From IMG/VR virus record IMGVR_UViG_3300027754_000003, positions 34,061-98,060 of that record: a stretch of 64,000 nt of DNA; one strand, written 5' to 3'. Shown here piece by piece: positions 2,929 through 41,755 of this stretch. The first letter of the stretch is position 1. Each line of letters starts with the position of its first letter. The notes beneath the pieces were generated by a model. That model saw nothing but the letters and a program-made list of their open reading frames with translations, did not search any database and was not told the DNA's origin. The stretch is from a virus. Made by a program: the position numbers and the translations under genes.

Positions 2929-4620
2929 TTATTTATCTTCGTCAGGTATACGGCGCTGGGCGAACCTTGCTCCGTATGCCTTACTAGTCATTTGATTCAT
3001 CAATTCCATTTCTACTGGCGGTACAGCAGTTCCTGGAAGCACTCCGCCCCCTTGAGGGCTTCCTGCACTAGTTACATTACCATCTCCTGAAGGAGCAGGT
3101 TCAAGACCCCCTCCATTAGGAAGTAGTCCTGTAGCCATCATTACCGCTTGACCAATTTGAGCACGAATCATATCCAGTGCTCCTTGGTCAACAGCGTCAT
3201 CTCGTAGTTCCTCAAAGACTTCAATCATCTTCTCATTCGGGAACTCTTCACCTAGGGCTCGTAGTGCGCCCTTCTTAGACTCAATACCTAAAGCCATCTT
3301 TGCCTGCACTTCATTGAGTTTGATGAGAGCATCAACAGGAAGGGGGTCGGGCCAATGGATTGTTGTCTTATATGTATTTGGGTCATTGGGGTCCAACTGC
3401 GTGAGCATGTCTGGCTCAGGCATTGCCGTTTGTGAAGGGTTGTAAATAAGCAACTCTGGAATAAACACAGCACAAGTTTTAATAATGATTTCGTTAAGTT
3501 TCTCAAGACCCTGTGTAAAGTGAATCTTCTTCATCTGGTAACGGTTCATCAAAGGCTGATACTGGATAGCCAAAGCAACACCTGAAGTGTTAGATACTGG
3601 TTGGAATTGACCAAGGGCAGTTTCAGGAACACCAGTGATTTCGTGCATTGCTCGTTTAATCATTTGCACGTATTCAATAGCACCAGACATTTCACCACGT
3701 GATTCAAGGTTAAATACTTGTGCTTCTTTTGGAAGTCCAGCCCAAACCTTTTTAGGACCACGCTCAAGTTGTGAAGCCTTAGCGCCTGTAATAATTGTTA
3801 CAGGAGCAGCATGGTAGTTAATGATGTCTGAAATTTCAGTCATCTTCTCGTTGAGTTCACGGTTCAACTGGATAATGTCCCAGATGTCTGACTGACCCCA
3901 AGGTGATGAAGTTATTGTAATGTTCGGAATGTGAACGATTGGAACAACACCAATTGGGTTTTCGTACTCGTCAATTAACTCATCATTGATAAATTGTTGC
4001 ACGGTGTTATCCGTGAGGATTTCAGTAAAGGTGTAAACCTGACGAGTACCTTCGGGTGATGTACCCCAAAAGCGGTACTTAAGTTTGAAACGAATCAAAC
4101 GCTCACGGTCATGGGGGTGATACTCAGGGAAACAATGCGCTGGGTTTAACGGGAGAATACGAACACGACCTGGATGTTGTAGACCAACACCGTCAGCGTA
4201 AGGCTCATCAAAAGCAACCTTTACAAAGCAGTCTCCAGTGATACTTGCAAGTTGTCCCATTTGCCACAACAAATAATGTTTGTTGTTGTGGTTATCCCAA
4301 ACCTCATGGAGGAGTTGGGGAATGATTGCTTCGTTTTGCTCAGGTACTTTAAATTGAATACCTTTACCAAAACAAAAGTTTGTAATGAAGTCCGACATGG
4401 TCTTCACATAGTTCATGGTGACATTGTTTTCACCTTGCTCACGGCGGTGTGACCAGTGGTGTCCTAGATACCAAGCCCAAGCAGCAGAATACCTGTTGAG
4501 TCTTGGTCCGTGAACTTCAAACTCTTCGTCAGCAAGTTCAACCAATCCAAGTGGACTAATCGCTACGGTTAAGTCGCTAGATGCCGCCCTATAAGACGGG
4601 GACCAAAAATCAACAGGCAT
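2929..4620 (-). CDS. Phage portal protein
   Basis: 563-residue protein expected to form the ring at the capsid vertex through which DNA passes and to which terminase docks. It shows portal features: an N-terminal alpha/beta region (NYVKTMSDFITNFCFGKGIQF), a central segment with 'SPWGQSDIWDIIQLNRELNEKMTEISDII' spread over the stem region, 'ITGVPETALGQ', and a helical crown with acidic repeats. The C-terminus (residues about 490-540) is Gly/Pro-rich and flexible. AAGGTG precedes the ATG. Directly followed by scaffold and capsid genes, which supports the call. Confidence 0.88.
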   Translation of the reverse strand: MPVDFWSPSYRAASSDLTVAISPLGLVELADEEFEVHGPRLNRYSAAWAWYLGHHWSHRREQGENNVTMNYVKTMSDFITNFCFGKGIQFKVPEQNEAIIPQLLHEVWDNHNNKHYLLWQMGQLASITGDCFVKVAFDEPYADGVGLQHPGRVRILPLNPAHCFPEYHPHDRERLIRFKLKYRFWGTSPEGTRQVYTFTEILTDNTVQQFINDELIDEYENPIGVVPIVHIPNITITSSPWGQSDIWDIIQLNRELNEKMTEISDIINYHAAPVTIITGAKASQLERGPKKVWAGLPKEAQVFNLESRGEMSGAIEYVQMIKRAMHEITGVPETALGQFQPVSNTSGVALAIQYQPLMNRYQMKKIHFTQGLEKLNEIIIKTCAVFIPELLIYNPSQTAMPEPDMLTQLDPNDPNTYKTTIHWPDPLPVDALIKLNEVQAKMALGIESKKGALRALGEEFPNEKMIEVFEELRDDAVDQGALDMIRAQIGQAVMMATGLLPNGGGLEPAPSGDGNVTSAGSPQGGGVLPGTAVPPVEMELMNQMTSKAYGARFAQRRIPDEDK

Positions 4621-4657: not shown

Positions 4658-4927
4658 TTACTTCTTTTTTGCTGGTGAGGCTTTTTTGGCTGGGGACTTC
4701 TTAGCAACTGGTGCTGCTTCCAAAGCCTTAGTCGCCACGCTCAAGAGAAGAGCCGTGTTCTTAGGACCAATCTTGGTTGAAATAACCGAGACAATTGCTG
4801 CTGCTGCAGGTACTGCAATTGCAATCATTTCTGGGGTCAAGTCCAACTTGGCTCCTAGATAAGTAAGTGCGCCCAAAATTGCGCCCTTGATTGCTGCATC
4901 TGCTGTTTCTACTTTTGCTTGATTCAT
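4658..4927 (-). CDS. Small hydrophobic protein with Lys/Pro/Ala tail (holin-like or DNA-binding tail)
   Basis: 89 residues. The N-terminal two thirds contain hydrophobic stretches (AAIKGAILGALTYLGA and MIAIAVPAAAAIVSVIS), compatible with one or two membrane helices. The last 14 residues, KKSPAKKASPAKKK, resemble the SPKK/SPAKK tails of histone H1-type DNA-binding proteins. AAGGAG lies six bases before the ATG. It sits between portal and an Ntn hydrolase gene, not next to the endolysin, so it may be an internal virion or membrane protein rather than the main holin. Function not assigned. Confidence 0.55.
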   Translation of the reverse strand: MNQAKVETADAAIKGAILGALTYLGAKLDLTPEMIAIAVPAAAAIVSVISTKIGPKNTALLLSVATKALEAAPVAKKSPAKKASPAKKK

Positions 4928-4954: not shown

Positions 4955-5587
4955 TTATACAGGCTTACGGGTTTTACTTGTTTCGTACTCCTGAATGTAC
5001 GTGTGATACGGAGGACCCGTATGAGGGTCAAATCTAGCACTAACTGTCAGAGCCTTCAAAGCGTTAGTTTTAGCCTGTTGCACAGTTTGCTTCTTATTGT
5101 GCGTAAGTATTTGCATAGCCCCTAACGCATACTCACCACCAGAACCAATTACGTAAAGACCACTGGCTTCTGAAGCCCAAGCGTAATCACCATCAACGAT
5201 ATAAATAGTTCCATTAATGGCTACAAGGATTAACGACCCTTGCTCCGCAATATGTTCTTTATTCTCGTTGAGGTCGGGGATGGAGTATCCCTGAGCATCA
5301 AAGCATTCTCTGAGTGCTGGGATAAACTTCGCCGTAAAGAACTGGTCAAGTTTCTTCCCCTTAAGGTTTGGTGGTGGGGTCGGCGGTTGAAACACGTGAT
5401 GGAGAATGTTGATGGCTCGTACATCTCCAGCAGCACCAAGTAAATATTTTCCATTAGTTGATACCTTGCTGCTTCCTTCACGAAGCGTTCCTATTTGCGT
5501 GGCAATGCCCCCATCAATAGATGAGATACGAGAGTCCACACATACGACAGCGAAACCATCACCTTGGACAGCAACGATAGTAGTCAT
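4955..5587 (-). CDS. HslV/proteasome beta-like Ntn hydrolase
   Basis: 210-residue protein that matches the N-terminal-nucleophile peptidase fold. It begins MTTIVAV, as HslV begins MTTIV; after Met removal Thr2 would be the nucleophile. An Asp in 'CVDSR' (Asp18) and a Lys in 'SSKVS' (Lys41) occupy positions equivalent to the catalytic Asp and Lys of HslV/proteasome subunits, and 'IGSGGEYALGA' (about 147-157) matches the conserved GSGG helix cap. Length is close to bacterial HslV plus about 30 residues (an inserted Pro-rich loop PPTPPPN near 68-74). No HslU-like ATPase is present nearby. It lies in the head cassette, so processing of virion proteins or action on host targets are both possible. 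Confidence 0.75.
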   Translation of the reverse strand: MTTIVAVQGDGFAVVCVDSRISSIDGGIATQIGTLREGSSKVSTNGKYLLGAAGDVRAINILHHVFQPPTPPPNLKGKKLDQFFTAKFIPALRECFDAQGYSIPDLNENKEHIAEQGSLILVAINGTIYIVDGDYAWASEASGLYVIGSGGEYALGAMQILTHNKKQTVQQAKTNALKALTVSARFDPHTGPPYHTYIQEYETSKTRKPV

Positions 5588-5590
5588 GGT

Positions 5591-6748
5591 CTACTCGGCA
5601 ATAAATTCTTTACCATGATACAACGCCCATCCGTTGTAAATAGGAATAACATCGTATGAGAACCTGTGATTTCCGTCATCTTCGTAAGTGACAACACCAA
5701 TACCTTGTTGCCAGTTCTCATACCGAGTTAGAGGTCGCCCGTCTAAATCCACCCCACCCCTAGTGCTAGGAATAGCCCCGTCAATCCTAGCCAAGCAGCC
5801 AGGAGAAGCAGCCATGATAGTTCTGGGACCATCAAAGTCTTCACGAGTTTTAAACGCTGTTTCAATGCGGTGAATGTGACCATAGATAACACTTGTCTTT
5901 TCTTGGTTGAGGTAAACATGTGCGGTTGACCCTGAAGATTTTACACGGTCACCGTGAATGATGCGAAGTTTTTCATTAACCCAATAATCTGATGCTGGGT
6001 AACCTGGTCGGTATTCAATACCAAACTCTTCCATGCGACAGAGATAAGGAACTGAAAGAACAGGCCATGACGCTGGTGTGTTTCCTTTGCGAAGACCATA
6101 AGCAGCACCTGCGTTTTGCACAAGGTACTTAGGCATACGCTCTTCGTGGTTTCCTGCAAGCCAGATAATCTTTGCATCTGGAGCAGCAGCACGAAGTTGA
6201 GCGCAGAACAAAGTTGCACGGTCAATTGATGCTTGCGTAGTTTGTGCGTACGCAGGATATGTCACATACTTACCCATCTCAGGTAAGTCAAGGTTGTCAC
6301 CAACAAGAGCAACAACTTCAGGCTGTAAATCTTCTACAAGTTTGATGCAGATTTCAAGAGCCTTTTCATCATGCGTTGCTTCTAGCAAACCCTCACGGTT
6401 ACGGAAATATCCAATTTGAATATCTGGTGGAACCACACAAGTTTTAAAACCTGTTAATTTTTTCTTAGTTGCTTTTGGCGTTGGCAATTTAATTGCAGGA
6501 CCTTGTTGTACAACAGGCCATTCAGGACCTGATTCCCACTTAGGTGAGAATTTAAATTGCACACCAGCAAGGTCATGGATTTCCGCTTCACCTTCTTCGT
6601 TCTTGGTAAGCGATTGATACAAAGATACCCTTTGAATTTGGCCTATTTCATCTACGTCAATTCCTTGACGAGCAAATAAATCAGCAAGTTTTCCGAGCAC
6701 TTCTTTAGGACTCTGTGGTCCAGCAGTTAGTTCTTCTTTAATGGACAT
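5591..6748 (-). CDS. Calcineurin-like metallophosphoesterase
   Basis: 385-residue protein with the metallophosphoesterase motif series in order: PDIQIGY (the first motif has DxQ where DxH is usual), GDNLD, GNHEER, HGD and GHIHR. This family hydrolyses phosphomonoesters or phosphodiesters using two metal ions. Residues 1-110 lack the motifs and may be a regulatory or DNA-contact region. It starts inside the end of the upstream 93-aa gene (11-base overlap) and ends 3 bases before the Ntn hydrolase gene. Substrate unknown; similar enzymes in phages are often placed beside DNA-handling genes. Confidence 0.8.
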   Translation of the reverse strand: MSIKEELTAGPQSPKEVLGKLADLFARQGIDVDEIGQIQRVSLYQSLTKNEEGEAEIHDLAGVQFKFSPKWESGPEWPVVQQGPAIKLPTPKATKKKLTGFKTCVVPPDIQIGYFRNREGLLEATHDEKALEICIKLVEDLQPEVVALVGDNLDLPEMGKYVTYPAYAQTTQASIDRATLFCAQLRAAAPDAKIIWLAGNHEERMPKYLVQNAGAAYGLRKGNTPASWPVLSVPYLCRMEEFGIEYRPGYPASDYWVNEKLRIIHGDRVKSSGSTAHVYLNQEKTSVIYGHIHRIETAFKTREDFDGPRTIMAASPGCLARIDGAIPSTRGGVDLDGRPLTRYENWQQGIGVVTYEDDGNHRFSYDVIPIYNGWALYHGKEFIAE

Positions 6749-7206: not shown

Positions 7207-7743
7207 CTACCCCTGAAAGGAAGCGACAGCCTCTGGCATATTGTCACCACATACGTAGCGCAAGTGCCAAGGCTCTTCGGGAACGACTTCCCATGAGAAA
7301 CCAAATTTCTTAACATTGGCAATAAGCCAATTAAGACGCTTTGCTTCACCTGCATTAGCCACATCAACGGCAATGCCGAGGTTGTGCTGGGACTTACCAG
7401 GTGTCGCCAGGGTCGCCATACCTTTCTTCAAATACCAAGTCTTTCCTTCAAAAGTCTTGGTTTTGCCAGTTCCCGTATCGGCTAGTTGATAGCGTGTGAG
7501 GAAACCTTTTTTCTGTGTTTCGTAATCACGATATGTGTCGCCTGCTGAAGTCGGCTTGAGTTCAATACCTTCAGCCTTTGCAGCAGCAACCATTGCAGCC
7601 CATGCTTTTGCTGCAATGTGGTGCATCTTTCCGCCACCTACTGCTGGAACAAGAAGGTTTGCTGGCAACTTTCCAGGCTCAATGCCCTTAAGGTCTTTTG
7701 GCAATACAACTGGAACAATGTAATCCCATGCAACTTTACTCAT
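7207..7743 (-). CDS. Endolysin, VanY/M15 D-alanyl-D-alanine carboxypeptidase type
   Basis: 178-residue peptidase that should cut the peptide stems of peptidoglycan at lysis. The zinc-site signature is complete: SQHNLGIAVD (118-127, supplying His120 and Asp127) and a downstream EPWHLRY (His160). 'SAGDTYRDYETQ' at about 66-76 is the usual upstream Ser/Arg element of this family. No signal peptide, so it depends on a holin. GGAGGAAG precedes the ATG, and the gene overlaps the holin-like gene by four bases (ATGA), forming a compact lysis module. Confidence 0.85.
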   Translation of the reverse strand: MSKVAWDYIVPVVLPKDLKGIEPGKLPANLLVPAVGGGKMHHIAAKAWAAMVAAAKAEGIELKPTSAGDTYRDYETQKKGFLTRYQLADTGTGKTKTFEGKTWYLKKGMATLATPGKSQHNLGIAVDVANAGEAKRLNWLIANVKKFGFSWEVVPEEPWHLRYVCGDNMPEAVASFQG

Positions 7744-10603: not shown

Positions 10604-12169
10604 CTAATTGAAAAAGGGATTTTCGCCAACTTGAATAGTGGGCATGGCATCGTACACAGACATGGCACAGGCAAGAGCCAATGAGTCTGGGTAGTCGTCA
10701 AATGCGCCCTTCTCATTAGGGGCTTCAGCCAACATATATGGACCACGATAGACCTTTTCAAGGTCATTCATCTGCTGATTAAAGCGCTTCCATGAACGGG
10801 TACGGCGAGCCTTAGAGTGTCCTGGGATTACTAATTGCTCACGTTGAATCAATTCAGTTAGGTGTACCCAACGCTGGTTTTGATTTTTAGAGTCAGAAGT
10901 CATTGAAATCACTTCTATCTGGGGTAGCAAAATCTTAAGTCGTTCTGCCACAGCACCACCGACACCTTGTGAATCCACACCAATACGAAGAACATCGTAG
11001 TTTCTTAGGAAGTCAATGATTTGAAAATACTGCTGTTCCCATTCTTGGTCGTTGATTTCTAGCCAGTTAAGAATGCGGTGCTCGTAAAAACCAAAAGGGT
11101 CTGGATGGTCCCAGTCAACCCAGCAGACAGTTACTACGGTAGAGTCGTTTGAACGAGCAACGTCAATCCCCACTACTACAGGAGTACGCCACCACTGTTT
11201 TACCAACGGCATAGATGGGTCGTAAAGTCTTTCCATACGTTCCTCAGTGACGAACATTCCCTTTTCCAACATCCATCGGTTGCAATACGACATCTGAAAT
11301 TCGTCAGAGTCTTCACCAATGCGGAGTTTTTCTTTAGCAATAAACTTCCCATAGTTAGAGTTGTATTTAGAAGCAACTTTGTAGTCGTACTCAAAATGGC
11401 AATCTCGTATTACTTTCCTGCTTTGGTTAATACGCCGTTTGTTGTATTGAATCATCTTGTAGAAATAGGACTTGTTACGAGAAGCCGTTCCAGTGAGCAT
11501 GATGCTCCCGTTGTTAAACGCCAACATCGGCTTGATTGACTTGGTAATCATAAACTCATCGGCTTCCTGAGCCTCGTCAATAAGCACAAAGTGGTAGGTC
11601 TTTGACTCAATCTTTGCCTTTGGGTTACAGGTCTGCATTCGGCAGATAGAACCAGAGCGCTTCATGGTGATGATTTTTCCCTTACCACGAGTACCACCAG
11701 AGGTAGCCTTGTCATCTAGTTCAGGGTCAAGGAGAAAACCAAGAGCGTGGTCGCTAGTCAAACGACTGACAATACGGCTAAACACGGTGTCTGCTTGGTC
11801 TTCAGTTGGGGCAAATACTCCAACCCAGAAACCTTTTTCAAACTTAGATAACCACGTTGGATAGATGCCTGAAAGTTTTGGAAGGATAACCATCATTGAT
11901 GCAAGCACGTTGGAAAGCACTTCTGATTTACCAGATTGGCGAGTTGCAATTAAAGTTATTTCTTCACCGTCACCTAAGACAATGGACTCAATGATTCGGT
12001 ACGCAATAGGGATTTGGTACGGAAATAGTTCAACATTGCAAAATTGCTCGGTAAAGAGAACCAGTTTTGTAACTAACTGGTCAACAAATTCAGCCGAGGT
12101 TTCGTCAAGTTCCTCAACTAATTCTTCGGCTAGTAACTCTTGTTCTTGGTCCAATAGGGAATCCGACAT
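10604..12169 (-). CDS. terL: Terminase large subunit
   Basis: 521-residue DNA-packaging motor and nuclease. The ATPase half has the phage-type Walker A 'ATRQSGKS' (75-82) and Walker B 'FVLIDEA' with Asp198-Glu199, followed by a coupling motif (LTGTAS, about 226-230). The C-terminal RuvC-like nuclease half shows acidic residues in 'VVGIDVARS' (Asp336), 'RIGVDSQG' (Asp399) and 'DDYPDSLALA' near the end. Length is normal. The gene lies upstream of portal and capsid in the leftward direction. No small terminase could be recognised next to it. Confidence 0.93.
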   Translation of the reverse strand: MSDSLLDQEQELLAEELVEELDETSAEFVDQLVTKLVLFTEQFCNVELFPYQIPIAYRIIESIVLGDGEEITLIATRQSGKSEVLSNVLASMMVILPKLSGIYPTWLSKFEKGFWVGVFAPTEDQADTVFSRIVSRLTSDHALGFLLDPELDDKATSGGTRGKGKIITMKRSGSICRMQTCNPKAKIESKTYHFVLIDEAQEADEFMITKSIKPMLAFNNGSIMLTGTASRNKSYFYKMIQYNKRRINQSRKVIRDCHFEYDYKVASKYNSNYGKFIAKEKLRIGEDSDEFQMSYCNRWMLEKGMFVTEERMERLYDPSMPLVKQWWRTPVVVGIDVARSNDSTVVTVCWVDWDHPDPFGFYEHRILNWLEINDQEWEQQYFQIIDFLRNYDVLRIGVDSQGVGGAVAERLKILLPQIEVISMTSDSKNQNQRWVHLTELIQREQLVIPGHSKARRTRSWKRFNQQMNDLEKVYRGPYMLAEAPNEKGAFDDYPDSLALACAMSVYDAMPTIQVGENPFFN

Positions 12170-21171: not shown

Positions 21172-21177
21172 ATCCTA
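21172..21177 (-). promoter_or_regulatory. Leaderless-type -10 element
   Basis: TAGGAT (TAnnnT) on the minus strand, six bases (AAAGCC) before the ATG at 21165. The AGGAT inside it could alternatively act as a weak ribosome binding site, so the reading is less certain than at TATAAT sites. Confidence 0.4.
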
Positions 21178-21579
21178 CTTGCTCATTGACAATCCTGCTC
21201 TAGGGGTCAGGGAAATAACCTCATGGTTTACTGTTGCTGGGACATAGATAAGGTCCCCAGGTTCTAGCGTGTAATCACCATAATCCGTAATCCATTTTGT
21301 TGAACCCTGGCATTGCCAAAAATAAACATCTTCCGTATCGTTATGTTTACCGAATCCGTGGTTTCCTTTTGCCGTAGACACGTAAACATGAGCCACAGTT
21401 AAGCCTAGGGTTTCCAAAACCGCTTCTGCGGACTTCATGGTGTGTCCATCTACGGTTGTCGTAAAGCACCCCCCAATGCGGCGAAACGAACCACCAGATT
21501 CTTTTGACGCTTCAATATTTTCGTTTATCTCATCCCATGTTGGGGTAGGAAAATAAAACCCTTTTGTAAAGATCACCAT
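21175..21579 (-). CDS. Cupin-like protein
   Basis: 134 residues. A cupin fold is suggested by 'GKHNDTEDVYFWQCQGSTKWITDY' (residues about 76-99), and a second motif 'LEPGDLIYVPATVNHEVISL' with the PG-D-x-x-x-x-P-x-x-x-x-H arrangement (about 104-124). His residues at 'KHND' and 'NHE' could bind a metal. It likely belongs with the neighbouring oxygenase cluster, perhaps as a dioxygenase or isomerase. Start ATG has the divergent palindromic promoter at 21586-21601. Confidence 0.7.
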   Translation of the reverse strand: MVIFTKGFYFPTPTWDEINENIEASKESGGSFRRIGGCFTTTVDGHTMKSAEAVLETLGLTVAHVYVSTAKGNHGFGKHNDTEDVYFWQCQGSTKWITDYGDYTLEPGDLIYVPATVNHEVISLTPRAGLSMSK

Positions 21580-21585
21580 TTTCCC

Positions 21586-21601
21586 ATACTAGCGCTAGTA
21601 T
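21586..21601. promoter_or_regulatory. 16-bp palindromic bidirectional promoter, ATACTAGCGCTAGTAT
   Basis: A perfect palindrome fills the 28-base gap between divergent genes. Each half provides TAGTAT exactly six bases before an ATG: to the left 21579 (cupin) and to the right 21608 (YkgJ-like). Both transcripts would be leaderless. The symmetry also gives a natural dimeric operator, so one regulator could control both genes. Confidence 0.7.
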
Positions 21602-21607
21602 CTGGTC

Positions 21608-22099
21608 ATGGACAAAAAAGAACCATTTCATGTAGTTGTGCGAGATAGAAGTTGCGGAACATGCACAAAATGTTGTGAGGGTTACCTAGCAGGGGAAATC
21701 CAGGGGATACCTTTCTACGAAGGAAAACCCTGTCATTTTGTGGACATTGGTTCTGGATGTTCTATTTATGAAGACAGACCAGAAGAACCTTGTAAGGCAT
21801 TCAAGTGCTTATGGTTATCTGACCCAAACTACCCAGAATGGTTGAAACCAAATATTAGTAATGTCATGTTTGTTGACAGGTACATTGGTCCACATCCTTA
21901 TGTTTTTGCTAAAGAGGCTGGCGGGAAAATGGATGCCAGGACATTATCTTGGGCAATAAACTACATGTCATTCAATAAGTTTAATTTTGCTTGGCAATAT
22001 GACGGTGGGTGGAACGCAATAGGTACTGACGAGTTTGTTAAAGCCTATTTTGAAAATGAGCGATATTATGCCCCAAACGGAAAAGTTGAGAATCGCTAG
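21608..22099 (+). CDS. YkgJ-like metal-cluster binding protein
   Basis: 163 residues, on the opposite strand from its neighbours. The N-terminus has the Cys pattern of the YkgJ family: 'SCGTCTKCCEGYL' then 'KPCHFV', 'GCSIYEDRPEEPCKAFKC' (residues about 11-60). Such proteins are thought to bind Zn or an Fe-S cluster. The rest is a charged C-terminal domain ending NGKVENR. It overlaps the convergent 2OG gene by four bases (22096-22099). It could deliver iron or electrons to the adjacent oxygenases, an inference from context. Confidence 0.75.
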   Translation: MDKKEPFHVVVRDRSCGTCTKCCEGYLAGEIQGIPFYEGKPCHFVDIGSGCSIYEDRPEEPCKAFKCLWLSDPNYPEWLKPNISNVMFVDRYIGPHPYVFAKEAGGKMDARTLSWAINYMSFNKFNFAWQYDGGWNAIGTDEFVKAYFENERYYAPNGKVENR

Positions 22100-22653
22100 A
22101 TTGTTAGTTCAAGGAAATCAAAATTAAAAGCAATTACTGTCTTTCTTTTCTTTGAGTTATTCACTGGGGAGCGATGTATCAGGGATGCTGGAAATAGCAC
22201 AACGTCACCTTCGGATACGTTGAATCTTCTCACGATTGACGTATCAAACGGTTCAACAAACTCCGTCACACATTCCTGGTCTGGGAGTTCTAAATAATAA
22301 ATACCAGAAAAGTTTGAACCAGCGTGATTGTGCCAATGGTGGTAGTCGCCACTCTCATATTGTTGGAACCAAACACCACGCATTTCAAGTGTTTTATGCA
22401 GTATTGAATCTGGGAGACTAGCCATGAAACCATTAATGTATTCACAAAACAGAGATGACCACGGTCTTTCCTCTTCCAGCAATGAGAAATCATATCTAGA
22501 GATTCGTTCTAAGTTATTAGATGGGTCTTTCTTTGATTCAAAGTCAGCAGACTCTATGAGGCTTAACATAACTGGTTTTAGAGAGTCATGGTTTGGCATT
22601 TTTCTAACCATGTATGAACCGTGATATTGGTGTTTTGTTACAAAATCAGACAT
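22096..22653 (-). CDS. Putative 2-oxoglutarate/Fe(II) oxygenase
   Basis: 185-residue protein whose second half has the oxygenase signature: 'YHHWHNHAGSNFSGIYYLELP' (first metal His region) and 'GDVVLFPASLIHRSPVN' with the distal His, then a basic pair before 'VIAFNFDF'. It fits the pattern of small phage/proteobacterial 2OG-Fe(II) proteins where the double-stranded beta helix is short. Such enzymes hydroxylate amino acids, lipids or nucleobases. The substrate is not deducible; it is one of four such genes around the halogenase gene. Confidence 0.75.
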   Translation of the reverse strand: MSDFVTKHQYHGSYMVRKMPNHDSLKPVMLSLIESADFESKKDPSNNLERISRYDFSLLEEERPWSSLFCEYINGFMASLPDSILHKTLEMRGVWFQQYESGDYHHWHNHAGSNFSGIYYLELPDQECVTEFVEPFDTSIVRRFNVSEGDVVLFPASLIHRSPVNNSKKRKTVIAFNFDFLELTI

Positions 22654-22663
22654 TGTTCCTCTT

Positions 22664-23308
22664 TTACACGTATTTTTGGTAGGTATTCATTGACTTGTGT
22701 AAGTACTTTTTTATCATTTTATTTTCACGTTTTTTGTAAGCGGTATGGTATTCCTCTGTACGAAGTGGGCTTACCCCTGTATTATTAAAAAACCAATGAT
22801 CTGGTTCAGCATAGTGTGCAATAAATACTTCTACATAATCGTTATAGTTTTCTTTAGGAAACTCTGGCCTCCAGTGTAACTGCTTTACACCATTATACAA
22901 AAGAGCATCCCTGTCCCCCCATGTATATTCTTTTCCGTTTACGTACATAGGCCATGAGACAGTTGATTTGAGTTGTATATCAATTGTGTATGTGCAGGCA
23001 TTGTCGTCTAGATGTGGTGGCAAATTTGGAACGCCGTACTGTGGAGAGTACCGAAACCATTTAAAATAAGATGGTAATGCTGTACTAGAAAAGTTATCAA
23101 CAACAATTTTATTTAATGTTTCGTATATTTCAAAAGGTAAAGATTCTCCATCAACAAATGTTGCTCTTGGGTCTGCACTTTTTCTTCCAACTGCGTTATT
23201 AAAATGGTTCTTTTTTTGTGGATGTGTGTTGATGTACTCAAGTATCACGCTCTGTTGCTGTTCAGAGATGACGTTTTTTAAAACTTTTGGTTTTTTTACC
23301 CTTTTCAT
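22664..23308 (-). CDS. Putative 2OG/Fe(II) oxygenase
   Basis: I use ATG 23308-23306, which makes an ATGA overlap with the upstream stop; an in-frame GTG lies at 23329. The protein has 'FKWFRYSPQYGVPNLPPHLDDNACTYTI' in two pieces, with an HxD (HLD), then 'WPMYVNGKEYTWGDRDALLYNG' and 'QLHWRPEF' with the distal His. The basic C-terminus (KKRENKMIKKYL) is unusual. It lies between two other oxygenase-like genes. Product and substrate unknown. Confidence 0.65.
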   Translation of the reverse strand: MKRVKKPKVLKNVISEQQQSVILEYINTHPQKKNHFNNAVGRKSADPRATFVDGESLPFEIYETLNKIVVDNFSSTALPSYFKWFRYSPQYGVPNLPPHLDDNACTYTIDIQLKSTVSWPMYVNGKEYTWGDRDALLYNGVKQLHWRPEFPKENYNDYVEVFIAHYAEPDHWFFNNTGVSPLRTEEYHTAYKKRENKMIKKYLHKSMNTYQKYV

Positions 23309-23985
23309 ATAACTAATGAAGGTTTGCACTCAAACTGGATTGGTTTATGCGGTGGTTCGTGGCAATCAATGAATGTACTAATCATCCATTTATCTCCAGA
23401 AATTGGAACTCTACCGACATGTGGGTGTGTCCAATACGCTGGAAATATTGATATGTCCCCTACAGATGCTGGAATAACAATATTGTGTGATGGGAATCCA
23501 GTCCCACCACCTACATCAACTGTGTTTAGGTACATGACAACACCAAGAACACGCAAATTAATAGGGTTTGAGGACCAAGGGTCACCATCAGTATGTGACC
23601 TGTAAAACCCATCTCTTGGGGAGTACCTTTGGAGTCTATAACCAGTGTCTTTTAAATCAACATGAAACAACTCAACGTATTCCTGAACGTACAATGCTAA
23701 AGCAGAATAAAGACCAACAGTTACTGCATCTTCACATTTAGTAAATACTGAACTGTTAATACCAAAAGAATCAACAACTGACTTTGAAAAAGAAAAGTCC
23801 ATAGTGTTTTTTATTTTTGGGTTAAGCCCACCAAGTGTTGGCCCTGGTGAAAAAAGAGTTTCAAAGTTTTCAAGGCACTTAGTGACTAACTCAGAACATA
23901 CGTTTTCTGGTATTGCATTTTTAACTACAGCAATAGCAGAAGATTTTCCAGCAGGGAATTCTATCCTCATTTGATTATCCGTCAT
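23305..23985 (-). CDS. Prolyl 4-hydroxylase-like 2OG/Fe(II) oxygenase
   Basis: 226 residues. The conserved core is 'RYSPRDGFYRSHTDGD' (HxD metal ligands), 'VVMYLNTVDVGGGTGFP', then 'GDISIFPAYWTHPHVG' (distal His) and 'GDKWMISTFI', where a Lys would bind 2-oxoglutarate in place of Arg. This is the P4Hc-type layout used to hydroxylate proline, lysine or asparagine in proteins. Starts at ATG overlapping the previous stop; overlaps the next oxygenase by four bases. Confidence 0.8.
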   Translation of the reverse strand: MTDNQMRIEFPAGKSSAIAVVKNAIPENVCSELVTKCLENFETLFSPGPTLGGLNPKIKNTMDFSFSKSVVDSFGINSSVFTKCEDAVTVGLYSALALYVQEYVELFHVDLKDTGYRLQRYSPRDGFYRSHTDGDPWSSNPINLRVLGVVMYLNTVDVGGGTGFPSHNIVIPASVGDISIFPAYWTHPHVGRVPISGDKWMISTFIDCHEPPHKPIQFECKPSLVI

Positions 23986-24398
23986 GGTATGAATACTAGC
24001 GCCGAATCAACGAGATTTCCACCCTTCAAAATTTGGATTAAAAACTCTCCAGATTCTTCTGGAGTAAACGAACCTATTAGAGAATGTTTGTCCCGTAAAA
24101 ATGAGTAATAAACACATTCTTTATCCCCGTTAGTCACGACTAACTTGCAGTTTTCTACGGTTTCAAAATCGTTCAAATAATCAAACAATATTGGAAATGC
24201 GTGGTTAACTTCATCGGGTATATGCATCATAAACCCGTTGTTAACGGGAACTACTACTACACATGGTTTTGACCTATCAAACTCAATAGATTTTGTTTTT
24301 TCCGAATCACCTATTTGGATTGGAAGGCTCCACTCCTTGGCAAGTTCCTCTGCTTCTTCTAGTTGTTCTTCAGATTGGCAATAAACAATCCTATCCAT
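23982..24398 (-). CDS. Hypothetical protein, 138 aa, halogenase cluster
   Basis: Acidic protein with alternating hydrophobic strands (IVYCQSEEQLEEAEELAKE, CVVVVPVNNGFMMHI, CKLVVTNGDKECVYY) and no family recognised. It overlaps the next gene (upstream, DUF6065-like) by eight bases and the P4H-like gene by four, so it is an integral cluster member. It may bind substrate or bridge partners; nothing in its sequence decides this. Confidence 0.6.
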   Translation of the reverse strand: MDRIVYCQSEEQLEEAEELAKEWSLPIQIGDSEKTKSIEFDRSKPCVVVVPVNNGFMMHIPDEVNHAFPILFDYLNDFETVENCKLVVTNGDKECVYYSFLRDKHSLIGSFTPEESGEFLIQILKGGNLVDSALVFIP

Positions 24399-25260
24399 TT
24401 TTGTTTTCCTTACGCAGTTTTGTATCTATCTTATTTTGTTCTGCTTTGTACTTTCCATGAAAATCTTCGTTTCTCCACGCACCATCAAATCCAAGATTAT
24501 CAAGGAGCGCATACATGGATGAATCTCCTCGTTTTAATGTTGATTTCTTTGTAGTGTCCTCACGTTTGAATGGGATTACGTGGTACAGAGGGGTTCCTTC
24601 TTTAATTACAAACTCGTTATCAACTTTTATATTCAAAACTATGTTTGCATGATGGTAATAGTCAGTATTGACAACTCCAGCCATAACTTGGTAATTTTGG
24701 TTTGGTTCCCATTGAGGACCTATAAGCAATGATGAGTAGCCTGGTGCTGTCTTAATAAGCCAAGGATTTAGCAATTTTACATAATTAGATGTTTTTAATT
24801 TTCTATCGTTTGCCATTGGACACTCACCAGTTTGGGCAAAATTAAACTGATTTTGAGCAACACCCTCGTCTGAAAAGTACTGTTTTTTTTCTTCTTCTGT
24901 AAGTACGCCCGTTTCCAATACAGTACTACTGGAGTGGTTGTATTTAGTATCCCATGTAGCATTTAACTTGCTTATAGGTGGTCGTATGGATATTTCTGCC
25001 CACATAGGTATTGTATACCCAGAACGCAAAAAATCTGATAGACCAGAACACGTACGAAGACTTGCATCTCCCTTTTGTAGTTTTTCATACCACTCTGCAA
25101 ATTTTGTATTGCTTGCATAAGCGGAAATTGATGGATGATAAAAATGATTTGTTGGTGGTACCATCAAAACTTCATTTGGTTTAATTTCTGGTATTTGCTC
25201 CCAGGTATCTGCTTTTACTAGCCCATCTTCATTATTTTTGATTTTTGAAAATAGACGCAT
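24391..25260 (-). CDS. DUF6065-like protein
   Basis: 289 residues. The C-terminal half has 'NPWLIKTAPGYSSLLIGP', 'VNTDYYHHANIVLNI' and 'EGTPLYHVIPFKRE', a pattern I associate with DUF6065 proteins, which are found beside tryptophan-halogenase and oxygenase genes in marine bacteria and phages. Catalytic residues are unknown. It overlaps the halogenase gene by 29 bases at its N-terminus (the ends lie in different frames) and the 138-aa gene by eight. Family call is tentative. Confidence 0.6.
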   Translation of the reverse strand: MRLFSKIKNNEDGLVKADTWEQIPEIKPNEVLMVPPTNHFYHPSISAYASNTKFAEWYEKLQKGDASLRTCSGLSDFLRSGYTIPMWAEISIRPPISKLNATWDTKYNHSSSTVLETGVLTEEEKKQYFSDEGVAQNQFNFAQTGECPMANDRKLKTSNYVKLLNPWLIKTAPGYSSLLIGPQWEPNQNYQVMAGVVNTDYYHHANIVLNIKVDNEFVIKEGTPLYHVIPFKREDTTKKSTLKRGDSSMYALLDNLGFDGAWRNEDFHGKYKAEQNKIDTKLRKENKNG

Positions 25261-26710
25261 GTGGAACTCTCTTTCGTTGTAGTGTCATTGACCTTAGTGA
25301 CGTATAGTGTTGAATTATTGGTTCTCTTGATTGATAAGCATCTAGACCCATAGATGCTACTTCTTTTGGTATTAACCCCTGCCCTTGTGCAACGTGCCAC
25401 AAATGAGGAGTAGCAAATAACTCATAACCAAACCTAGGAATATCAGTGTCTAATGGTACTCGTTCTTTCCACAATTCAAGAAGAAAACTCAGTGTATCTG
25501 GAATTTTTGCGTTTTTCTGAGCAACCCACATAGCCGAATCTTCTCTATCTGATATGTAGTGCAATGAAATCATAGTCAGGATGTTATCCATTAAAGAATC
25601 AAAGGTTTTTCTGTAATGTTCAACCTGGGCTACTGACGAAGGTCCAAATGTTGGCAAAATTGCACAAATCATTCTTGCCTGTTGAATTGAGGTTGAAATT
25701 GATGTTGCCTCAAGTGGTTCTACAAAGGAGGAAGCAAGACCAACGGAAGCACAGTTGAACTCAAAGGAGTGTTTAAAATACCCAGATTTGTATCTGATTA
25801 TTCTTGCTGGGGTTATTTCCCTACCATATGCTTCAGAGAGTTCTTTAACGGCCTGATCGTCTGAGCAAAAATCAGATGCAAAGATATAACCATTTCCTCT
25901 GCGTTCTTGAGTTGGTATCTCAAACACCCAGCCATTTGCTAACGCTCGTGCTCTTGTGTATGGTCGGATTTCCCCAGACTCGTCTGGTGGTGTTGGAAAT
26001 ACTGCAGCAGAGTCAGTGGGCAAATAGTCTCTGTACGAAATAAAAGTATCTTCTTTAACTAGTTGTGACATCAACATACGTTTAAACCCAGTTGCATCAA
26101 TATAGAAATCTGCGGCAATGTTTAAACCAGTGTCTGTTGAAATTGATGTAATAAACCCGTTTTCTGGGTTTCTTTCAATTTTTTCAACAATTCCTTCATG
26201 CAACTCAACCCCTCTATCCTGAGCAAGTCGTTTGAGGTAATTGTTTAGTTTGAAAGTGTCAAAATGAAATTGATTTGTTGTGTTGTGTTGTTGATGTGGG
26301 TCTTCCGTTTGGATAACCTCGTTATCCCATAGATGATCTGAGTTTACGGCTGCTGTGAGAGGCCACCCGTTTTCAAGTGCAAATGCATAGTTTGAGTAAT
26401 AGTCGTTTGGCCCAAAGCCACCCTCTGAAACGCTATGAAAATAGTCTGGTGTATGATTTGTCCAGTTTTCAAACCTGATTCCGTATTTGTGCGTTGCAGC
26501 GCATTCACGAACCATTTCATTAACATCTATACCGTGTGGGGTAGTAAAGAACTGTTTCCAGTGCTCTGTTGAGCCTTCCCCAACGCCAATTATTCCTATC
26601 TTTGCTGAAGATACAACTGTTAATTTGTAGTGTGGAAAAAAACCACGGGCCATTATCGCAGTAAGTAATCCAGCAGTACCAGAACCAACTATACAAACAT
26701 GTTTTTGCAT
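25232..26710 (-). CDS. Flavin-dependent tryptophan halogenase homologue
   Basis: 492 residues, normal for this family. FAD-binding GxGxxG is GSGTAG (9-14). 'IGIIGVGEGST' (about 38-48) and the conserved 'THKYGIRFENW' with Lys75 match the halogenase Lys that carries the hypohalous species. 'YIDATGFKRML' (about 203-213) and 'SSFVEPLEATS' (Glu near 334-339) are also conserved. The WxWxIP motif appears as WVFEIP (261-266), so the second Trp is Phe. Such enzymes chlorinate or brominate indoles; cyanophages carry relatives with broad or iodinating activity. The flanking oxygenase genes suggest a shared pathway; the substrate is unknown. Confidence 0.88.
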   Translation of the reverse strand: MQKHVCIVGSGTAGLLTAIMARGFFPHYKLTVVSSAKIGIIGVGEGSTEHWKQFFTTPHGIDVNEMVRECAATHKYGIRFENWTNHTPDYFHSVSEGGFGPNDYYSNYAFALENGWPLTAAVNSDHLWDNEVIQTEDPHQQHNTTNQFHFDTFKLNNYLKRLAQDRGVELHEGIVEKIERNPENGFITSISTDTGLNIAADFYIDATGFKRMLMSQLVKEDTFISYRDYLPTDSAAVFPTPPDESGEIRPYTRARALANGWVFEIPTQERRGNGYIFASDFCSDDQAVKELSEAYGREITPARIIRYKSGYFKHSFEFNCASVGLASSFVEPLEATSISTSIQQARMICAILPTFGPSSVAQVEHYRKTFDSLMDNILTMISLHYISDREDSAMWVAQKNAKIPDTLSFLLELWKERVPLDTDIPRFGYELFATPHLWHVAQGQGLIPKEVASMGLDAYQSREPIIQHYTSLRSMTLQRKRVPHASIFKNQK

Positions 26711-26713
26711 GTA

Positions 26714-27319
26714 CTACCTAAACCAAGAAACAATTGAATACTTTACTTCCTCGCTGTTTTCTCCAACAGGGTTAGCGTAATGGAAATACGGAAAGTTACT
26801 TGGGAACAAAACTACAGAACCAGCCTTTGGTTTTACTGTCACATTAAGCAACGGGAATGTAAGTTCTCCACCATCACTAACGTCATTTACAAATCCAACA
26901 AGACTAAATACTCTCCCGTTATCTTGGTGGTGGTCAACATGGCCCCGATATTCAGCGCCAGAACCATACTTAAGAATTCTGTAACCTTCGTTTGTTGATA
27001 CTTCAATATTGAATGAATTTCTGTAATGCCAAATAACTTTTTCTAATTGTTCAGTAATATCTTGTGCGGATTTAGCCAAAGGTATTACTCTTTCAACTTG
27101 GATATTGTCAACTGGAGACATTAATGGAGAAAGTTCACAACCTTGTGAAGAACGGTACGAACTTGTTGTTGCGGTGCTTTCTCCGCCAGTTTGCGACCTA
27201 AACCATTGGACATATCCCCAATCTTGTTTACATTCTCCTTCTAAAAGTTCTATAAAGTTTGATGGTTTAAAAGCATTCTCATACACGTATATACATGTAC
27301 CAAGTTCAATTGGTTTCAT
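26714..27319 (-). CDS. 2OG/Fe(II) oxygenase-like protein
   Basis: 201 residues. A complete small oxygenase core: 'GYRILKYGSGAEYRGHVDHHQ' (HxD metal ligands in GHVD), 'VGFVNDVSDGGELTFP', 'GSVVLFPSNFPYFHYANP' (distal His), and 'EVKYSIVSWF' with Lys for 2OG binding. It resembles P4H-type and phage-specific 2OG enzymes. It is three bases from the halogenase gene and just after a His-rich tail fibre gene, so it could act on the fibre or on the same substrate as the halogenase. Confidence 0.78.
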   Translation of the reverse strand: MKPIELGTCIYVYENAFKPSNFIELLEGECKQDWGYVQWFRSQTGGESTATTSSYRSSQGCELSPLMSPVDNIQVERVIPLAKSAQDITEQLEKVIWHYRNSFNIEVSTNEGYRILKYGSGAEYRGHVDHHQDNGRVFSLVGFVNDVSDGGELTFPLLNVTVKPKAGSVVLFPSNFPYFHYANPVGENSEEVKYSIVSWFR

Positions 27320-35430: not shown

Positions 35431-35745
35431 TTACTTTTTACCTTTACCTTTGCCACCAGTCTTCTTTGGGAAGTCGTGACCAATCTCAGCCATTTTTCTA
35501 CGTACAAGACTTTCCATGTTTTTTACGGCACGGTGGTCTGAAGGGGTACTAGCCATGTGGACAACCCCGTCACCTTTGATGCGAAGTTGGATGTGACCGC
35601 TTTGGGTCTTGTGACCCATCACAGGGGTGCTTCCTTGCCCTACACGGGACAACATCTCACGAAAGGGCTTGTCGGTGGTCAAACTACGGACACGGTCTTC
35701 ATTAAGAGCGTGTTGGTCCCAATTAAGATGCTCTTCTGTACCCAT
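35431..35745 (-). CDS. HicA-like small protein, 104 aa
   Basis: Residues about 40-90 ('GHKTQSGHIQLRIKGDGVV', then ASTPSDHRAVKNMESLVRRKM) match the pattern of HicA/YcfA-type RNA-binding mini-domains: a beta hairpin with 'H..L...G..V....TPSDHRA..N'. HicA toxins cleave mRNA; phage versions may be virion or host-directed RNases. The N-terminus MGTEEHLNWDQH belongs to a set of shared N-terminal peptides in this zone. The active-site His in the HicA pattern is partly retained (GHI). Its own leaderless promoter (TACAAT) precedes it. Confidence 0.6.
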   Translation of the reverse strand: MGTEEHLNWDQHALNEDRVRSLTTDKPFREMLSRVGQGSTPVMGHKTQSGHIQLRIKGDGVVHMASTPSDHRAVKNMESLVRRKMAEIGHDFPKKTGGKGKGKK

Positions 35746-36477: not shown

Positions 36478-37881
36478 TTAGAACTTAAACATACTGGACC
36501 AAGGGTCCGATTTTTCCCTTGCTCTTATAGCCTTATTATGTGCTTTTGCTTTTTGTTGTCTTTCAAAGGCAGGGTCGTCACGGGTAAGTTGTTTTTTACT
36601 CAATGGTTTTGGCATTGGGTTTGCGGCGGCATTAACATTAAGTTCATCGTATGCCTCCATTCCTGGAAGGGTGTTTTGAACACCAATGCCTCTTGCTGAA
36701 ACACGTTCATTATCAACGCTTAAACTTAATGAATTATCAACAGACCCAGCACCTAATCTTTCCACAAGGTCTAATGCTTCATTTTTTGCTTCCCTAACCC
36801 GTACTGGGGTGTTTGCAACATGGTGTCTGTAAAAGGCTTGCGAATAGTTAGAAACATCACCTAATCCCATTGATTCTAATTGACCATGTATTGCAGGGTT
36901 TTCATGGGTTAATTGACCTAGGTAAAGATGACGAGCAGCAGTTTGGTATTCAGGCTGTTCTTCTAGTGGTTTAACAGACCCACTTTTATTTGATTTTATT
37001 AATGCCGCCCTCTTTTTTTCTTTTATTTCCTTACCTAAACCTCCTAAGTGAGTTTTAGCAAGTTCAGTCATATCAGGTAGTGTTTCTAGAGCAGATTTAC
37101 CGCCAGTTGCTACATGCAGACGAGTAGCAGCGTATAAAGCCATTTCATGCTTATCTTTCCACCCTCTAAAGTCAGCGTGATAACCACCTGTTGAATTTGC
37201 CATCCATAGGTCGTTAAACCTTCCTGGATTTTGTGCTGGGTCAAGTGTGGGCTCACGCCTTTTTGGTGTTCCACTATCCCAACCTGGTTGTTCTGCGTAG
37301 CGGTCAGTGTACGCATCAGCAGCACCTTCAAGAATTGGTGAGGTAACTGTTCTTGTTCTTCCTGACCCTTTTTCTGCTGCATTTATTTCAAGAGACTTTG
37401 CGCTTCTACGGCTTCCTGTTCTTTCTTTTGATACATCAAAATCTTCTTTATGACCCATTTCGTGGGCAAAGGAACCAGGACCAGTATTATGCGTGTCATT
37501 ATTAGAACTTAATTGTATTTTGTGAGCACCAATCTCGTATCTTCCTGCTTTAACAGATGAAGATGTCATTGTTGTTGCATTAATTTTGTTAGGGTCTTTT
37601 AACCCAGCGACACTTGGGCTCATTACGTGTGTTGGCATATCCGTATTTTCGGCATAACTAACTGCAAGTTTTGAAGATGTGTTTAGCGCTTTAGAAATAT
37701 CACTACGGCGTTTTTCTTGTGGGTATGTTGGGTCATCTGAGGTCATAGTCCCTGTTGCAGGGTGAAACAACATTCCTTGGGGATTTTCCCATTGTTGATA
37801 AGGGTGTACAAAATCTTGAGTTTCCCCACCACCATCAGGGGTAAAGTAGGTGTTATTGAACTGTGAACCAAGAGTAGGCAT
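36478..37881 (-). CDS. Putative HExxH zinc metallopeptidase, 467 aa
   Basis: Contains HEMGH at 140-144 in 'GSFAHEMGHKEDFD', the zinc-binding active-site pattern of zincins. The N-terminus 'MPTLGSQFNNTYFTPDGG' and the element 'NPQGMLFHPATG' (about 33-44) match those of the next protein, indicating paralogy. The C-terminus is basic. It has its own leaderless promoter (TATAAT five bases before ATG). Possible roles: processing virion or host-surface proteins. Confidence 0.65.
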   Translation of the reverse strand: MPTLGSQFNNTYFTPDGGGETQDFVHPYQQWENPQGMLFHPATGTMTSDDPTYPQEKRRSDISKALNTSSKLAVSYAENTDMPTHVMSPSVAGLKDPNKINATTMTSSSVKAGRYEIGAHKIQLSSNNDTHNTGPGSFAHEMGHKEDFDVSKERTGSRRSAKSLEINAAEKGSGRTRTVTSPILEGAADAYTDRYAEQPGWDSGTPKRREPTLDPAQNPGRFNDLWMANSTGGYHADFRGWKDKHEMALYAATRLHVATGGKSALETLPDMTELAKTHLGGLGKEIKEKKRAALIKSNKSGSVKPLEEQPEYQTAARHLYLGQLTHENPAIHGQLESMGLGDVSNYSQAFYRHHVANTPVRVREAKNEALDLVERLGAGSVDNSLSLSVDNERVSARGIGVQNTLPGMEAYDELNVNAAANPMPKPLSKKQLTRDDPAFERQQKAKAHNKAIRAREKSDPWSSMFKF

Positions 37882-37886
37882 GACTA

Positions 37887-37892
37887 ATTATA
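37887..37892 (-). promoter_or_regulatory. Leaderless-type -10 element
   Basis: TATAAT on the minus strand, five bases (TAGTC) before the ATG at 37881. It overlaps the stop codon of the upstream gene at 37888. Confidence 0.55.
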
Positions 37893-39528
37893 GACCAGGT
37901 AATTCTGGCTGTTCATAAACGTCACGCTTCATACCCTTCATGCTTCCTTTTCCTCGCATTGCAGAAGGGTCTGCTACTCGTGACATGTACGTTTCATGTG
38001 CTGTTTTAGCAGTTTTACCAAAACCAAGTTCATTTAGTACAGGGCGAACATGTGGCATATGTTCGTACATATGACCAAGCATTAGTTTTGTTGTTGGTAT
38101 TTCAATATTGTTATAGGAATGGGAACGATTAAATAATGTGTCTCCCAATTCTTTGCGGTTTTTCATTCCTTCTATTCGCTCAGGGTGTGCTGCTACGTGA
38201 AAACGAACAGCAGAATAAAGCGCTCGTTCTTCTGCATTCCACCTACCAAAGGTAGACGAATACCCAGTCGTACTAATATCTTTTGCACGTAGTTGTGGGT
38301 TAGTCAAATGCTTTTCAAATTGACCAGAATAGTGATGCGCCCTGTCGGATAAAGAATCTGCATACCCTTCACTAACTGGGTCATAGATGGCTATATCTAT
38401 CCCACGCCTACCTTTACTGAAGATGTCTCTTTGGTTCTCATCTCCATAAGGTTCTGTTGTGTGACCCAACTCGTGAGCAAGGGTATTAGCGTTGGCTTCG
38501 TACCCGCTTATGTTAGTACTGTGCTTATACGTGATTTTAGGTGGTTTTGTTGTATCTGGCTCATACCGTGAATGCCATGTTTGGTAGGTATACCCAAAAC
38601 CAAAGTTTTCTGGCAAGTAACCACTTTCAATTTCAATCTTTTTACCAACTGCGTGTTTTTTACCACTCTCTCCTTTAGTCGGGTACACGTTTGGTCGGTA
38701 GTTATTGTCTTTCAACCAATCCATTGCTTCAATCTCAGATACACCAAACCCACCATTAACACTTTCAATATGGTCAAATGGTTTACCTTGAATCGTGTGT
38801 CCCTCATCATTTGTCCAATGGACATCTTTTTCACCAACAAGTGAATGAATATCCCCAGGGTGTTGAACTTTCTTTCTGTATTGTGACCAAAAATTCTTAT
38901 TTGGAATAGGTTTGTCAGATGGTTCGTGTGTTGATATTTCTTCTACAACATCTGTTTTCCTTTGGCGAACCCCAACAACAATTTCGTCACCACCACGTGC
39001 ATTTGCCCAACCTGCATTCCATTCGGTTGGTTTAGTGGTAACACCTTTACCTTGTTCATACATATGTGTTGGTATATCTAAATTATTTGCTGCGTTTGCA
39101 AGTGCTACATTTTTTTCGTACCTAGTCTTAGTATCACCATAATTTGGTAAATTCTTGCGATAAGGTTTTTTAGCCACAAACCGTTCATGGGAACTATTGT
39201 AAGCATCTATTTCTTTGTTTTTTTGTATTCTGGCATCTGCTTGCTGTTGAAGTTCATCCATGCCCATTAGACGCAATGTTTTGTTAATAGCGCCCATTCG
39301 TTGCTCAGTAGGAATAGTTGGGTCGTCTTTTAGCCCCGTATAAGAGTGTGGGCTAAACAACATCCCTTGTGGACTATCAGATGTACCAAAACCATCAGCA
39401 ATTTGAGGAGTACGTTGTTCTTTTGTGGGCAATTCACCTTCTGGAGTAGCCAACTCTGTAGAAGACATAACAGACTTTGACTTGGGGTCTTCCCAGTATG
39501 TGTTGCTAAATTGCGGTCCTAAAGGCAT
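37888..39528 (-). CDS. Putative HExxH zinc metallopeptidase, 546 aa
   Basis: Contains HELGH at 352-356 in 'NTLAHELGHTTEPYG'. N-terminus 'MPLGPQFSNTYWEDP' and 'SPQGMLFSPHSYTG' (52-65) correspond to similar elements in the neighbouring 467-aa paralogue. The extra length lies before the active site. The C-terminus ends with 'YEQPELPGL'. Its own promoter TATAAT is five bases before the ATG. Zincin proteases of this shape could cleave host surface proteins or mature the virion; the prefixes suggest a shared targeting signal. Confidence 0.65.
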   Translation of the reverse strand: MPLGPQFSNTYWEDPKSKSVMSSTELATPEGELPTKEQRTPQIADGFGTSDSPQGMLFSPHSYTGLKDDPTIPTEQRMGAINKTLRLMGMDELQQQADARIQKNKEIDAYNSSHERFVAKKPYRKNLPNYGDTKTRYEKNVALANAANNLDIPTHMYEQGKGVTTKPTEWNAGWANARGGDEIVVGVRQRKTDVVEEISTHEPSDKPIPNKNFWSQYRKKVQHPGDIHSLVGEKDVHWTNDEGHTIQGKPFDHIESVNGGFGVSEIEAMDWLKDNNYRPNVYPTKGESGKKHAVGKKIEIESGYLPENFGFGYTYQTWHSRYEPDTTKPPKITYKHSTNISGYEANANTLAHELGHTTEPYGDENQRDIFSKGRRGIDIAIYDPVSEGYADSLSDRAHHYSGQFEKHLTNPQLRAKDISTTGYSSTFGRWNAEERALYSAVRFHVAAHPERIEGMKNRKELGDTLFNRSHSYNNIEIPTTKLMLGHMYEHMPHVRPVLNELGFGKTAKTAHETYMSRVADPSAMRGKGSMKGMKRDVYEQPELPGL

Positions 39529-39738: not shown

Positions 39739-40104
39739 ATGGCGGCGCATGAGAGCATAAATGATAAGCAATTCTTTCATGGGACTACTTTTCGCTTTGG
39801 TCACATCAAAGCAGGTGACCACATTAGACCAGGGGTAGAAATTGATGCAGAACCGTACCATGATGCAGAGATGTTCCCTGAAGCAAGGCATTGGGCGCAT
39901 GCCACCCCGTTTTTATCTGCTGCTCGTAACTACGCTGAGTGGAATGCCAATGGTGACCATGAAAATGCTGCTGAGTACGACAACTATGAACCGCATGTGT
40001 TTCAAGTAGAGCCTGTAGGGGAAGCAATGCAAGACCCAAGACACCTTGCTGGTATTCGTGCAAAGAGACTTCGTGTAATACGAAGAGTGCTACCTGACGA
40101 ATAA
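39739..40104 (+). CDS. Arr-like ADP-ribosyltransferase
   Basis: 121 residues. 'FFHGTTFRFGHIKAGDHIRPG' (11-31) matches the opening of rifampicin ADP-ribosyltransferase (Arr: F.HGT....GD...PG), and 'HVFQVEPVGEAMQDPRHL' (about 86-103) matches Arr's 'IYVVEPTG...DDPN'. A 'WAHATPFLSAARNYAEW' segment fills the middle helix, where Arr has 'YFTATLDAAIWG'. Such a phage enzyme could modify host RNA polymerase, RNA or protein, or have a different target. Compared with Arr (about 140 aa) it is slightly short. Its N-terminus MAAHESIND fits the shared N-terminal peptide set. Confidence 0.68.
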   Translation: MAAHESINDKQFFHGTTFRFGHIKAGDHIRPGVEIDAEPYHDAEMFPEARHWAHATPFLSAARNYAEWNANGDHENAAEYDNYEPHVFQVEPVGEAMQDPRHLAGIRAKRLRVIRRVLPDE

Positions 40105-41581: not shown

Positions 41582-41755
41582 GTGGACCCTAGACACGAAA
41601 GCCCCCAATTCCGTTGGAAATCTAATACCAACCCTAAAGGGCATACCTATGTAGACGGAGAGGCTGTCAACATAGACGACCTCCATCAAGCAGCAGGGTT
41701 TACCAAGCGTGACCCACAATACCTTCTAGAGAAGCGTAAAGCAAAGAAGAAGTAA
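41582..41755 (+). CDS. Small basic protein, 57 aa (GTG start)
   Basis: GTG start at 41582-41584. Reads MDPRHESPQFRWKSNTNPKG... and ends EKRKAKKK. A stretch 'NIDDLHQAAGFTKRDPQYLL' looks like a short helical domain; the end is Lys-rich. The stop overlaps the next ATG (TAATG). The N-terminus 'ESPQF' resembles the 'GPQF/GSQF' prefixes of the two metallopeptidases. It could be DNA- or capsid-associated. Confidence 0.6.
   Translation: MDPRHESPQFRWKSNTNPKGHTYVDGEAVNIDDLHQAAGFTKRDPQYLLEKRKAKKK

Follow-up and report, generated by a model that had tools for sequence, protein, structure and literature searches.

A proteasome-like peptidase gene beside the head genes of a probable actinophage is likely an accessory gene

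We found that a virus with a probable actinobacterial host encodes a homolog of proteasome and HslV subunits, and that the gene is present in some related phages and absent from others next to an otherwise unchanged set of head genes. The gene is on the minus strand at positions 4955-5587 of the window, that is, the whole stretch of 64,000 nucleotides of viral DNA that was analyzed. We think it reasonably likely that the product is a phage-encoded, proteasome-like Ntn peptidase of group I of Fuchs et al. (similar to BPH and AAH), and that the gene is a swappable accessory gene that does not function in building the head. Related phages that share an unchanged head cassette but differ at a single slot, in having or lacking the protease, provide a natural comparison for function, and because of this pattern of presence and absence the function of the protease is testable. 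These results also extend the family to probable actinophages, where AAH has been reported absent, and take away a tempting idea, that of a head protease. Phage proteasome homologs have been known since 2021, and in the open-access literature on HslV-like proteases in phages the sole relevant source was the 2021 survey by Fuchs et al. (PMC8665760). The protease in the window is otherwise an expected addition to this catalogued family.

The ORF specifies 210 amino acids and starts with an ATG (5585-5587), and its product has the N-terminus MTTIV. The first-pass annotation had reported this start and likened it to that of HslV, naming no strand. The ORF listing and translation confirmed the start, gave exactly the same ends (4955-5587), and placed the gene on the minus strand. 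The ATG is the first start codon past the preceding in-frame stop, and therefore the protein has no propeptide. The second codon (5582-5584) specifies Thr2, the predicted nucleophile after removal of Met1. The codons for Asp18 (proteasome Asp17) and Lys41 (proteasome Lys33) are at 5534-5536 and 5465-5467, respectively, and those for a GSGG motif (Gly148-Ser149-Gly150-Gly151) are at 5135-5146, all on the minus strand.

The gene order, also on the minus strand, is metallophosphoesterase (5591-6748; phrog_20266, 7.7e-79), protease, a small ORF (4658-4927), portal protein of the SPP1 type (2929-4620; phrog_64, 3.8e-47; SPP1_portal), probable scaffold protein (2096-2875), and major capsid protein (MCP; 984-2063; phrog_1357, 4.6e-63). 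The MCP has no visible N-terminal prodomain. The scaffold protein was assigned from its position and charged composition and has no family match, nor does the small ORF (89 amino acids, with a hydrophobic stretch and a Lys-rich tail). Three bases separate the end of the metallophosphoesterase gene, which is common to phages with and without the protease, from the start of the protease gene. The terminase gene (10604-12169) is further upstream, and lysis-type genes, including one for a VanY-type endolysin (7207-7743), are between it and the protease region. The earlier placement of the gene inside the head cassette thus holds as a statement of position: the gene is between that for the metallophosphoesterase and those for portal, scaffold, and MCP.

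The predicted structure is that of an Ntn hydrolase. An AlphaFold2 model made with 31 relatives (pLDDT 86.2, pTM 0.82) has six strands, helices at residues 56-65 and 77-98, more strands, helices at 151-161 and 169-186, and a last strand at 194-200, giving stacked beta sheets flanked by pairs of helices. The top Foldseek match was BPH (5ovs; E = 9.2e-11, TM 0.68/0.77), followed by HslV. VIA-align gave Z scores of 18-19 to archaeal proteasome beta, BPH, HslV, and bacterial 20S beta subunits, with an rmsd near 3. The loop following helix 2 (about residues 99-117) is longer than that in HslV, and pLDDT is low at 106-115.

The residues predicted to be catalytic are conserved. Among 190 distinct homologs, taken from 307 matches, 189 have Thr as residue 2 and one has Ser. 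There are no exceptions to Asp18, Lys41, Gly148, and Gly150 (190/190), and 183 of the 190 have Ser or Thr at position 149. That is, each of these homologs has the N-terminal Thr or Ser and the equivalents of Asp17 and Lys33 that mark the superfamily. In an alignment these columns matched those of E. coli HslV and BPH, and the positions given earlier for Asp18, Lys41, and GSGG were correct, as was that of Thr2. The first-pass annotation had staked its reading on a structure prediction against HslV and proteasome beta subunits and on conservation of Thr2 among relatives; the prediction gave the Ntn hydrolase fold, and Thr2 is kept, apart from the one Ser. dN/dS relative to other family members was 0.045-0.16 in pairs without synonymous saturation. 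As judged from the sequences, strong purifying selection acts on the gene, whose catalytic residues are preserved, and from the alignments and the model the protein very probably has N-terminal-Thr peptidase activity.

The protein matched PHROG 1040 ("peptidase HslV family") with E = 5e-23. A chance ORF was ruled out by this match, by 281 relatives encoded in viral contigs, and by the Foldseek match to BPH (E = 9e-11). A profile made from 31 relatives matched BPH (5ovu; 1.4e-11) over almost its full length and, next, HslV and proteasome beta subunits. The Pfam Proteasome score was 22.2 bits, slightly below the cut-off of 22.4. The nearest annotated relative is the "ATP-dependent protease subunit" of Actinomycetia phage DSL-LC01, with 50% identity and the same catalytic residues. 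These residues are also found in the "protease" of Microbacterium phages WaterT and Pumpernickel and Arthrobacter phage Pitbull (28-32% identity). In contrast to the gene in the window, those of these four phages are in small-gene or tRNA/nucleotide regions and are not adjacent to the portal gene. Most annotated relatives are likewise outside the head region, among small ORFs or genes for thymidylate synthase, ribonucleotide reductase, or tRNAs.

Relatives are also found on plasmids of Rhizobium, Sinorhizobium, Mesorhizobium, and Streptomyces. In the protein tree, the rhizobial and Streptomyces relatives clustered with other phage proteins and were not adjacent to the protease in the window. 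Two of the rhizobial plasmid relatives are at L271 3001-3546 and L269 3001-3519; that of Sinorhizobium americanum is between nifQ and nifS, and in that of Rhizobium tropici CIAT 899 the frame is broken after 38 codons. The placement of HslV and BPH in the tree is unreliable, with long branches joined, and therefore we make no claim about deep ancestry. A search of genome contigs with the DSL-LC01 relative as query found none. A search of genome contigs with the alignment of relatives found one contig, from a Gammaproteobacteria MAG (L173), in which the protease gene is directly 3' of an ORF resembling the same metallophosphoesterase. This contig is probably a mis-binned piece of phage DNA.

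Fuchs et al. described two phage proteasome homologs, AAH and PPH, both of unknown function (PMC8665760). The protease in the window is a probable member of AAH, assigned by its features and not by the clusters of Fuchs et al. Like AAH, it is group I-like, with Thr, Asp, and Lys, no propeptide, and all four helices (H1-H4, with no S12 or H5, as in compact group I), and it matches PHROG 1040. AAH has relatives in alpha-proteobacteria, actinobacteria, and phages. The protease has relatives in phages and on rhizobial and Streptomyces plasmids; the plasmid relatives match the taxonomic spread of AAH but are not adjacent to the protease in the tree, and therefore membership is only probable. In contrast to AAH, which was not found in actinobacteria-specific phages (PMC8665760), the protease is in a phage with two WhiB-type genes (55107-55475 and 56600-57013, minus strand; Pfam Whib, 58 and 55 bits). 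Because WhiB genes serve as a mark of an actinobacterial host, by the criterion of PMC6802176, we conclude that the virus is likely an actinophage; its host would be a freshwater actinobacterium. PPH is also a phage-borne group I proteasome homolog. However, PPH has about 140 amino acids and lacks helix H2 (PMC8665760), and identity with PPH was ruled out by the length of 210 amino acids and the 22-residue second helix (77-98) in our model. BPH (5ovs/5ovt/5ovu) is the best match in both fold and profile, and it too has the longer loop after helix 2 and no linked unfoldase. It differs in that it is only about 20% identical, its gene is bacterial, and it is on a separate long branch.

We found no HslU-like unfoldase in the 98,060-base record from which the window comes (the record may be incomplete): searches with AAA_2 and ClpP gave nothing, and AAA matched only a DnaC-like loader. 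The earlier remark that there is no HslU or ATPase partner thus holds for the whole record as searched. It seems more likely that the protease acts independently of an unfoldase; host HslU or a proteasomal ATPase could also be its partner. One alternative, which we regard as unlikely, is that the protein is a true HslV that docks on host HslU, or replaces the peptidase of the host proteasomal ATPase, and so redirects host degradation. The fold is equally close to HslV (ClpQ) and BPH, the MTTIV start and GSGG are like those of HslV, and HslV models match residues 118-185. In contrast, the scores with these NCBIfam models were far below the cut-offs (NF003964, 27.5 bits vs 137; TIGR03692, 27.1 vs 157.75), there is an extra loop after helix 2, and Table 1 of Fuchs et al. 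does not mark HslV for Actinobacteria, the likely host phylum (PMC8665760). The earlier description as HslV/proteasome-like therefore stands for an Ntn hydrolase of the proteasome/HslV type and fails for HslV in the strict sense, at 27 bits vs cut-offs of 137-158.

It is also conceivable, although in our estimation improbable, that the protein is a ligase, transpeptidase, or amidohydrolase and not a degradative peptidase. The superfamily of proteasome homologs includes a ligase, connectase, along with AAH and PPH, which have no assigned function (PMC8665760). However, the mark of connectase, a helical insertion between strands 3 and 4, was not seen in the model, and the overall similarity is to BPH and HslV.

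A proteasome-like Ntn peptidase of group I, the reading that we favor, might work as follows. Host methionine aminopeptidase would remove Met1 and free Thr2 as the nucleophile, and Lys41 and Asp18 would complete the triad. By analogy to BPH and HslV, the subunits would form a ring or double ring. With no dedicated phage unfoldase, peptides and unfolded segments would be admitted, and host or phage polypeptides would be cleaved during infection. It is possible that the protease degrades host proteins, and our guess is that the benefit is turnover of host or defense proteins.

Related loci differ in whether they contain the protease gene. The order metallophosphoesterase, protease, (small ORF), portal, scaffold, MCP was kept in nearly all of the best 80 viral loci. 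A scan with the portal protein gave 11 sister loci without the protease (L139, L140, L147, L150, L151, L154, L156, and L158-L161). All have the metallophosphoesterase, a portal protein with 77-80% identity to that in the window and, where covered, scaffold (51-60% identical) and MCP (78-82% identical from residue 1, with the same N-terminus). In two of these records, of 99,044 and 94,522 bases, the protease profile had no match anywhere in the record, and no S78 or ClpP protease was found. An unrelated ORF of about 100 amino acids fills the protease slot in L139, L147, L150, L156, and L158-L161 (e.g., L160:5319-5615). This ORF (~98 amino acids), between the metallophosphoesterase and the portal region, has a weak match to phrog_25889, of unknown function. 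On a tree of the portal proteins from 66 loci, the protease switched between present and absent at least four times, with three of the changes forced by well-supported branches. These sequence comparisons indicate that the protease gene is accessory and occupies a slot with exchangeable contents, and that it would not be required for building the shell.

In a second lineage, phages of about 39 kb, 72 loci extend far enough to judge; the protease gene immediately follows the portal gene in 61 of them, and 11 loci with portals 85-88% identical have no protease. The MCPs of these two portal-adjacent lineages are 27% identical. Adjacency to the portal gene in two lineages with such distantly similar capsids hints at late expression, and it could reflect a late or virion-related role. 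We assign a low probability to the more specific idea that the protease forms a self-sufficient proteasome-like particle, made late from the portal-adjacent slot in both lineages, and that it destroys a specific host or defense protein or is a packaged virion enzyme. Two contigs of 205-216 kb (L078 and L079) have proteases 71-73% identical to that in the window, located away from head genes. They share the protease and lysis-type ORFs with the 98-kb phage (in L078, 10001-10612 and 16832-17301), which suggests exchange between unrelated phages.

There is very little chance that the protease is a prohead protease that functions in capsid maturation by cutting scaffold, capsid, or portal within the prohead. 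The location between lysis/packaging genes and portal-scaffold-MCP would fit, as would that in the second lineage, directly after portal, the usual site of prohead proteases, and searches of the 98-kb record turned up no prohead protease of the S78 or ClpP type. However, such a gene should be kept with a shared head cassette, and it is absent at the 11 sister loci, which retain portal, scaffold, and an MCP with the same N-terminus. The two long sister records also have no S78 or ClpP protease, and the at least three to four changes on the portal tree and the 11 protease-less phages of the second lineage argue in the same direction. WaterT and D'Alembert have the protease gene away from the head genes and, as a second gene, an annotated protease of the capsid or head. 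Thus, the first-pass suggestion that the protein replaces the usual prohead protease was not borne out.

Several proteins in the window have an N-terminus like MAAxEHLxxxQL (35434-35745, minus strand; 40598-41008, 41755-42177, and 42180-42524, plus strand), possibly a signal that directs injected proteins to the capsid or to export. Their neighbors include ADP-ribosyltransferase-like (39739-40101, weak Arr match), GNAT-like, and ParB-like proteins. In principle, the protease could trim the N-terminal tags of the effector-like proteins encoded at 35-42 kb, much as gp21 of T4 trims internal proteins that are targeted to the capsid; the shared N-termini and the weakly ADP-ribosyltransferase-like neighbor are what speak for this, and we consider it highly improbable. 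We know of no HslV- or BPH-type enzyme that is a site-specific processing protease. In addition, N-termini of this kind are found in proteins of a protease-less record (G002; L358). These proteins start MSASEHLQ, MSASDHINPDHL, and MSARNHLSPYQY, and two of them have homologs among the proteins of the window. Therefore a link between the protease and the tags is not supported, and the earlier proposal that the protease processes the tagged proteins describes no need that these phages appear to have.

Two other proteins of the 35-42 kb block (36478-37881 and 37888-39528, minus strand) have starts like MPxLGxQFxNTYx and an HExxH-type motif each (AHEMGH and AHELGH), with no Pfam match, and by these motifs they are possible metalloproteases. 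Elsewhere in the window, the ORF at 25232-26710 (minus strand) resembles, by eye, a flavin-dependent tryptophan halogenase, and beside it, at 21175-24398 and 26714-27319, are several short proteins that, again by eye, resemble 2-oxoglutarate/Fe(II) oxygenases.
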